Positions 25,798-26,502 of a stretch of DNA of 46,917 bases are shown piece after piece (the stretch's first letter is position 1; each line of letters starts with the position of its first letter). This stretch comes from a virus, in IMG/VR virus record IMGVR_UViG_3300032285_001468, positions 1 to 46,917 of that record; one strand, 5' to 3'. The notes below the pieces were generated by a model. It ran no database searches. It was not told the DNA's origin and saw nothing but the letters and a program-made list of their open reading frames with translations. A program made the translations under genes and the position numbers.

Positions 25798-26412
25798 TTA
25801 CCAAAACATATTTAATACACCATTAATACGTATTAAATGACCTTGTAGCGTGATCCTATATTCATTAGGCACATATTTCTTCAGACTTGCAATTCTATGC
25901 ATAGTCTTTCCATCATGGCCTATCAGCTCTTTTTCTTCATAAGGTAAATAGACTTGTTTGCCATCTTCAATATAATCCAGACCGCCACCACCCGTGGGCA
26001 GTTTAATGGCTACAGTAAACGTATATGGGTCAACATCTCCCAGACCTAATGTAAGGTGTGGATAGTCTTCATGCCATAATCCGCCATGGTAAAGTAAGAA
26101 TGGGCTAGATATAAAGATATGGAATGATGGGTGGGCCAGCTCATGGTTTAAAATAATAGGTTCTTTAAACTGATCTGATAAGTGATCAATAATGATACGA
26201 TAGGTATCACCAAATTCTTCACGCAATATAGGATTGAGTATCCTACTATCTTTTAAATACGCTGGAGTCTTTCCGTCTTGATAAGAGTTTCTACCAAGTG
26301 TATAAAACTGAAATTCATCTGATCTTGAGATAAAGTGATGTTGTAAGCTATATACTTTCTGAGCTATCTCATCAGTATTTATATCAAGCTTATGTTTAGT
26401 AAAAGGGGGCAT
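25798..26412 (-). CDS. 2OG-Fe(II) oxygenase-like protein downstream of pqqA-like gene
   Basis: 204 residues. LWHEDYPH supplies a HxD iron motif near residue 113-115; a distal His is in GKTMHRIASL (near 173) and an Arg in EYRITLQGHLIR (near 185), the order and spacing of a 2-oxoglutarate/Fe(II) dioxygenase. The middle has a Gly-rich turn (LPTGGGGLDYIEDG). It is the second gene of a two-gene minus-strand unit after the pqqA-like gene. Its ATG and GGGGG binding site lie inside a perfect hairpin (26405-26421), so translation may be controlled. The substrate is unknown; modification of the PqqA-like peptide is possible but speculative. Confidence 0.65.
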   Translation of the reverse strand: MPPFTKHKLDINTDEIAQKVYSLQHHFISRSDEFQFYTLGRNSYQDGKTPAYLKDSRILNPILREEFGDTYRIIIDHLSDQFKEPIILNHELAHPSFHIFISSPFLLYHGGLWHEDYPHLTLGLGDVDPYTFTVAIKLPTGGGGLDYIEDGKQVYLPYEEKELIGHDGKTMHRIASLKKYVPNEYRITLQGHLIRINGVLNMFW

Positions 26413-26421
26413 ATAGCCCCC
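26405..26421 (-). promoter_or_regulatory. Hairpin covering the start of the oxygenase gene
   Basis: Read on the minus strand, GGGGGC-TATAT-GCCCCC is followed by TTTT. The left arm is the ribosome binding site, the loop contains the start of the ATG, and the right arm is codons 2-3 of the oxygenase. The six G:C pairs would hide the start. It also lies 10 bases after the pqqA-like stop and, with its U-tail, could act as a weak terminator that separates the two genes. Confidence 0.6.
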
Positions 26422-26430
26422 GATTATACA

Positions 26431-26502
26431 TTACTTATTCATTACGTACATAGTCACTTCAAAGCCAAAGCGCATTTCAGTTGCTGATGGAGTTGTCCAC
26501 AT
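26431..26502 (-). CDS. pqqA: PqqA-like PQQ precursor peptide
   Basis: 23 codons from ATG 26502, with AAAGGAC as binding site 8 bases upstream. The peptide starts MWTTP and contains RFGFEVTMY: the conserved Glu (residue 15) and Tyr (residue 19) are exactly at the positions that are crosslinked to form PQQ in the 23-residue Klebsiella PqqA, and the MW-x2-P start and E-V-T-x-Y core are the family signature. PqqE (radical SAM) with PqqD joins the Glu and Tyr; none of the later Pqq enzymes is in this window, so host enzymes would process it. PQQ serves methanol and other alcohol dehydrogenases in the periplasm. Too short for ordinary gene finding, but the match is specific. Confidence 0.82.
   Translation of the reverse strand: [23 protein letters not shown]

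Follow-up and report, generated by a model that had tools for sequence, protein, structure and literature searches.

A Methylophilaceae-type pqqA gene, probably supplying PQQ precursor, in a phage record from IMG/VR

The stretch of DNA analysed, referred to here as the window, is the 46,917-base virus record IMGVR_UViG_3300032285_001468, which carries terminase, portal, ejection and replication genes. The features of the pqqA locus are as follows, with positions numbered from the first base of the window.

25798..26412, minus strand: 2-oxoglutarate/Fe(II) oxygenase (catalytic motif in all relatives; AlphaFold model)
26401..26421, minus strand: GC hairpin GGGGGC-TATAT-GCCCCC followed by TTTT, likely the intrinsic terminator of pqqA (pattern scan, fold and conservation)
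26431..26502, minus strand: pqqA, encoding the PQQ precursor peptide (PF08042 and TIGR02107 above curated cut-offs; peptide the same as Methylophilaceae host PqqA)
26511..26516, minus strand: AAAGGA, ribosome-binding site of pqqA (read directly; similar sites in related phage copies)
26503..27280, no strand assigned: long non-coding stretch upstream of pqqA, presumed promoter region (no convincing open reading frame)

The pqqA open reading frame has 23 codons (72 bp) and encodes a 23-residue peptide with an MW start and the core E15-V-T-M-Y19, in which the Glu and Tyr destined for PQQ stand four residues apart (EVTMY). The peptide scored 41.3 bits against the Pfam PqqA family PF08042 (E=1.4e-10, cut-off 21.1) and 38.5 bits against the NCBIfam equivalog model TIGR02107 (E=6.9e-10, cut-off 20), and judged by its sequence the open reading frame is a genuine PqqA, beyond chance. 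The AAAGGA site is spaced 8 nt from the pqqA ATG, and AAGGA- or AGGAG-like sites occupy the same position in related phage copies of the gene. A first-pass annotation of this DNA had described a minus-strand 23-codon PqqA-like gene with an MW start and an E15...Y19 core, preceded by its own ribosome-binding site and followed 18 nt downstream on the same strand by an HxD...H...R oxygenase. All of these elements were confirmed, the gene by reading and by the two curated models, the ribosome-binding site by its sequence and the gap as exactly 18 nt. Domain searches of the window found no radical SAM, PqqD, PqqB or PQQ-binding enzyme domain, and pqqB-E do not adjoin pqqA there as they do in a complete pqqABCDE cluster.

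The oxygenase is 204 amino acids long and has H114-x-D116, H172 and R186 all present, corresponding to the facial triad and the 2-oxoglutarate Arg. The two His and the Arg were found in 44 of 44 aligned relatives, as was HxD once a shifted alignment had been read by eye; ten distant sequences that show Glu, Cys, Gly or another residue where the Asp is expected were attributed to this shift, with HVD, HLD or HTD lying some residues upstream. The protein matched no Pfam family and matched one PHROG, the function of which is unannotated, and a KaiB match of the oxygenase profile among PDB sequences (E=0.04) was taken as chance. The AlphaFold model (pLDDT 93.8) predicts a double-stranded beta-helix, and its closest solved folds are WelO5 and then other 2OG-Fe(II) enzymes, the top PDB matches belonging to the same superfamily. 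The likeness to WelO5 lies in the predicted fold (TM 0.66-0.76 by query length) and in the HxD/H/R residues of the superfamily, but the two proteins are only about 11% identical, and WelO5 has Gly at the position of the triad Asp. A G166D variant of WelO5 is also listed among the PDB matches. A halogenase of the WelO5 kind was ruled out, since the triad Asp116 is present and not Gly or Ala, so that hydroxylation rather than halogenation would be expected from the sequence. Two more 2OG-Fe(II) oxygenase genes lie in tandem on the plus strand of the window (22208-22825 and 22818-23384), making three in this phage. Some other phages have two genes of the oxygenase family (phrog_24927) in direct succession, as at 6780-7670 of the viral locus L310.

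The hairpin and T-run between pqqA and the oxygenase had been missed by the first-pass annotation. The predicted fold has an energy of -14.4 kcal/mol, and its loop and 3' arm hold the oxygenase start codon at 26410-26412. The hairpin is kept in six relatives with compensating pair changes; one stem pair is G-C, T-A, G-T or A-T depending on the contig, and the second codon of the oxygenase varies accordingly (Pro, Thr, Ser). Wherever the two genes are adjacent, in the window and in six further contigs, the order is pqqA, TATAAT, and then the hairpin over the oxygenase start. As a possible oxygenase promoter the TATAAT is conserved in the lineage, but it has no convincing -35 element and the promoter scan did not find it. 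Across the phages a terminator-like hairpin lies within 85 nt after 66 of the 123 pqqA copies, as against 44 of 482 other open reading frame ends in the same contigs (odds ratio 11.5, P = 2e-25, an optimistic P value because the contigs are partly related). In Venkman, MEP301 and a spring-water phage, pqqA is oriented against both of its neighbours. Taken as sequence, the anatomy of phage pqqA is that of a moron cassette. The simplest view of the window would be that the hairpin is the terminator of pqqA, as in other phages, with the oxygenase gene starting inside it. Synthesis of the oxygenase would then need read-through or a transcript starting at or near the AUG. In MEP402 (L009, 621-696) and MEP401 (L010, 1018-1093), only 3 nt separate pqqA from the next annotated gene, which opens a block on the same strand with structural genes among its members, so that pqqA may share a transcript with this block in these two phages instead of standing alone.

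Among 50,697 phage records searched for PqqA peptides, the true phages with pqqA were confined to the spring-water phage and nine Methylophilales records (P19250A, Venkman, MEP301, MEP401, MEP402 and four Melnitz). Two records named Acinetobacter phage MD-2021a (CAKLQF020000010.1 and CAKLQH020000055.1) also matched and were not counted as true phage; the former, L013, has fur and polyphosphate kinase alongside a complete pqqABCDE operon and is evidently a chromosomal contamination of bacterial origin. In P19250A the gene lies at 28082-28153 on the minus strand and is unannotated. Most pqqA-bearing phage records have no gene annotated at the site; the Melnitz phage inspected and the spring-water phage each have a hypothetical protein called there on the other strand. 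The IMG/VR viral contigs were scanned for pqqA by DNA patterns of the peptide core. The core RFGFEVTMY was found in at least 120 contigs, and RIGFEVTMY, the core of the Acinetobacter pqqA retrieved here, in two, the peptides of which are otherwise Methylophilaceae-like; general carriage of pqqA by phages of any PQQ producer was rejected on this result and on the chromosomal nature of the Acinetobacter record inspected. Among the matches listed, no pqqA-bearing viral contig has pqqB-E beside pqqA.

On the bacterial side, a pattern for a 12-residue stretch of PqqA matched at least 120 places in bacterial genomes, and the named ones among those listed are almost all Methylophilaceae. The comparison with methylotroph PqqA proposed in the first-pass annotation gave complete identity, as the window peptide occurs letter for letter as Methylophilaceae PqqA in three bacterial genome assemblies; the two commonest phage variants are likewise identical to host peptides, with the caveat that some of the matching bacterial assemblies may include phage sequence. 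The ten host genomes searched hold 1-12 pqqA copies each, with a full PqqE above the curated cut-off in nine of them, in agreement with the 3-12 pqqA copies and single pqqBCDE set reported for Methylophilaceae (PMC4109929). Elsewhere in the window, the metallophosphoesterase is 77% identical to that of MEP301, the M15 peptidase is 48-50% identical to those of MEP301 and Venkman, and the terminase is closest to those of unassigned and Pelagibacter phages. The predicted host is a methylotrophic member of the Methylophilaceae, an assignment based on the peptide and on genes common to OM43 phages, with which the terminase disagrees.

The 123 full-length phage copies of pqqA fall into 110 distinct DNA sequences but no more than 42 peptides. 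Averaged over pairs, pS is 0.57 and pN 0.08, figures biased in the core by the search pattern, and the unbiased figures from outside the searched core are pS 0.50 and pN 0.12; on this pattern of substitution phage pqqA is under purifying selection. Some host copies share 65 of 69 nt with phage pqqA across the gene, as might be expected of a passively carried host fragment such as an attachment site or a recent unselected capture. Such a fragment is exceedingly improbable here, given the strong synonymous and weak amino acid divergence among the 110 sequences, the placement of pqqA at different sites in unrelated phages (such as Zobellviridae and Kyanoviridae) and the end of the phage-host DNA similarity at the gene boundaries, and it was rejected on the synonymous divergence and the diverse locations. 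The conservation of the peptide and its frequent separate transcription, as predicted from the sequence, would also suit a decoy or regulator that ties up PqqD, PqqE or another host factor and so lowers or redirects PQQ synthesis, and the chaperone PqqD could be titrated by substrate in excess. Nothing would oblige a decoy to keep Glu15 and Tyr19 or to match the substrate of the host, on which it could even improve, but the phage peptide is that substrate, and neither residue is replaced in any codon class searched. With the rest of the core kept, the whole viral collection contains no contig with a codon not starting with G at Glu15 and none with a codon lacking a central A at Tyr19, compared with at least 120 contigs with both residues; Asp, Gly, Ala or Val in place of Glu15, and His, Gln, Asn, Lys, Asp or Glu in place of Tyr19, fall outside these scans. 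This result favours a working substrate over a decoy, which is considered unlikely.

The other readings to be weighed involve the oxygenase, relatives of which were surveyed at 68 viral loci. Seven loci with close oxygenases (70-76% identity) have pqqA upstream, adjacent in six and separated in one (L262, IMGVR_UViG_3300032308_000830), in which an HNH/endonuclease-VII-like gene (CxxC...HCHTTKKLRDLLCFHCN) lies at about 900-1411 between pqqA with its terminator and the oxygenase. At L019, pqqA is 5 kb from the oxygenase relative. About 60 of the 68 loci have no pqqA in the stretch covered, their identified neighbours including DNA polymerase, exonuclease, helicase and ribonucleotide reductase, and cyanophages P-HM1 and P-HM2 carry an oxygenase relative near primase and nrdA. 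Among the approximately 120 pqqA contigs listed, the pair occurs in one lineage only, and because synteny with the window extends across many genes in the paired contigs, the pair counts as one evolutionary event. Conservation of the pair in other phages, an expectation of the first-pass annotation, therefore stands within this syntenic lineage and fails outside it, and the co-conservation of precursor and tailoring enzyme across lineages that marks a RiPP cluster was not found. A search of the ten pqq-bearing host genomes, run without a positive control, detected no counterpart of the oxygenase and so gave no sign of a role for it in PQQ synthesis, and with three 2OG-Fe(II) oxygenases in the phage a chance adjacency to pqqA is less remarkable. 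The adjacency is probably incidental, to judge from this distribution. The first-pass annotation had also proposed that the two genes form a functional unit, with the peptide as substrate of the oxygenase. A biosynthetic unit of this kind, with hydroxylation of the PqqA peptide or of a PQQ intermediate to a new product, would accord with the shared strand and short gap, with retention of the pair in all six other contigs of the lineage with adjacent close oxygenases of about 71-76% identity, and with an enzyme that has its full catalytic motif and a confident fold near the small-molecule-modifying WelO5, but it is highly unlikely when nearly all phage pqqA genes lack the oxygenase, most relatives of the oxygenase occur apart from pqqA and often near replication genes, cyanophages included, and the terminator-like hairpin, or in L262 an HNH-type gene as well, separates the two. 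It is also very unlikely that the terminator doubles as a switch for the oxygenase, locking its start codon and the preceding G-rich arm and fixing the ratio of the two products, with the oxygenase acting on a PqqA-derived peptide or a PQQ-linked process.

The likely explanation is that the window carries a functional, host-derived, stand-alone pqqA that feeds the PQQ pathway of the host and sustains methanol oxidation during infection. Supply of extra precursor to the host pathway had been put forward in the first-pass annotation and is the best reading of a true PqqA in a phage from which the rest of the tested PQQ pathway is absent. The phage gene would be expressed in an infected Methylophilaceae host, the PqqD and PqqE of which would accept the phage peptide and join Glu15 to Tyr19 by a cross-link, leaving PqqB and PqqC of the host to complete PQQ; the cofactor would then sustain a PQQ-dependent methanol dehydrogenase, with a presumed benefit of energy and carbon during infection. 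The downstream oxygenase would be a separate phage enzyme, its start codon overlapping the terminator-like hairpin of pqqA. One PqqA is consumed per PQQ, and the other components of the pathway are catalytic enzymes. Host Pqq enzymes could persist after host gene expression declines, in which case feeding the pathway through a 72-bp gene would cost the phage least. Cell extract supplied with PqqA peptide made PQQ from it at 70-80% conversion, according to work cited in PMC9851590, and overexpression of pqqA is reported to raise PQQ in Gluconobacter oxydans, as cited in PMC7936290. Together with the one-for-one consumption and the multiple host copies of pqqA, these reports make substrate supply the most economical explanation. 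Counting against it, the hosts already hold several pqqA copies and PqqA is not necessarily limiting. Processing of PqqA may also be too slow to matter within one lytic cycle, but the latent period of 17-20 h in MEP401/402 (PMC10580990) leaves room for it.

The first-pass annotation knew of no established phage system with this pair of genes. Phage PqqA without the oxygenase has been reported, with the same proposed purpose, in the Lake Baikal methylotroph virus VP_266 (PMC7678222), and viral pqqA is listed in reservoir sediments (PMC13188868). VP_266 resembles the present case in its phage-borne pqqA, predicted Methylophilaceae host and proposed support of methanol oxidation, but the T4-like viruses of Lake Baikal encode methanol dehydrogenase as well, and VP_139 has radical SAM proteins, whereas the window has pqqA alone. 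The same study states that P19250A is without any of the auxiliary genes reported there (PMC7678222), contrary to the pqqA found in the P19250A record, and pqqA goes unmentioned in the main texts of the papers describing MEP301, MEP401/402 and Melnitz. In comparison with open-licence PubMed Central papers, the prevalence of phage pqqA, its confinement to phages of methylotrophs and its occurrence in P19250A appear to be new here, and an earlier description elsewhere is possible. The window copy resembles the bacterial PqqA family (PF08042/TIGR02107) in length, MW start, E-V-T-M-Y core and identity to some host copies and differs in lying in a phage without pqqB-E, in which it is comparable to the orphan pqqA copies of Methylophilaceae (PMC4109929).

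If it is routine for phages of methylotrophs abundant in marine and fresh waters to carry the PQQ precursor, such phages may adjust methanol oxidation during infection by the cheapest means, a consumable substrate rather than an enzyme. Cyanophage psbA is a phage moron, or auxiliary metabolic gene, and phage pqqA resembles it as a host metabolic gene that selection apparently maintains, often as a separate transcription unit; the difference is that pqqA encodes a consumable cofactor precursor and not an enzyme or photosystem protein. Cultured phage-host pairs exist for P19250A, Venkman, MEP301, MEP401/402 and Melnitz, and the idea is directly testable in them. Standard gene calling misses this common 23-codon auxiliary gene, so that the metabolic genes of these phages are undercounted, and the PqqA peptide may serve as a marker for Methylophilaceae phages.

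The non-coding stretch at 26503-27280 separates pqqA from plus-strand early genes, and a long gap occupies the same position in related contigs. A search for structured RNA upstream of pqqA gave only sub-threshold Rfam matches. On the plus strand of this stretch, at 26746-26898, a good sigma-70-like promoter (TTGACA-17-TATATT with TG) has a 13-bp terminator about 85 nt beyond it, and the segment between them is a candidate small RNA of about 110 nt that belongs to no Rfam family and has a fold z-score of -4.85.
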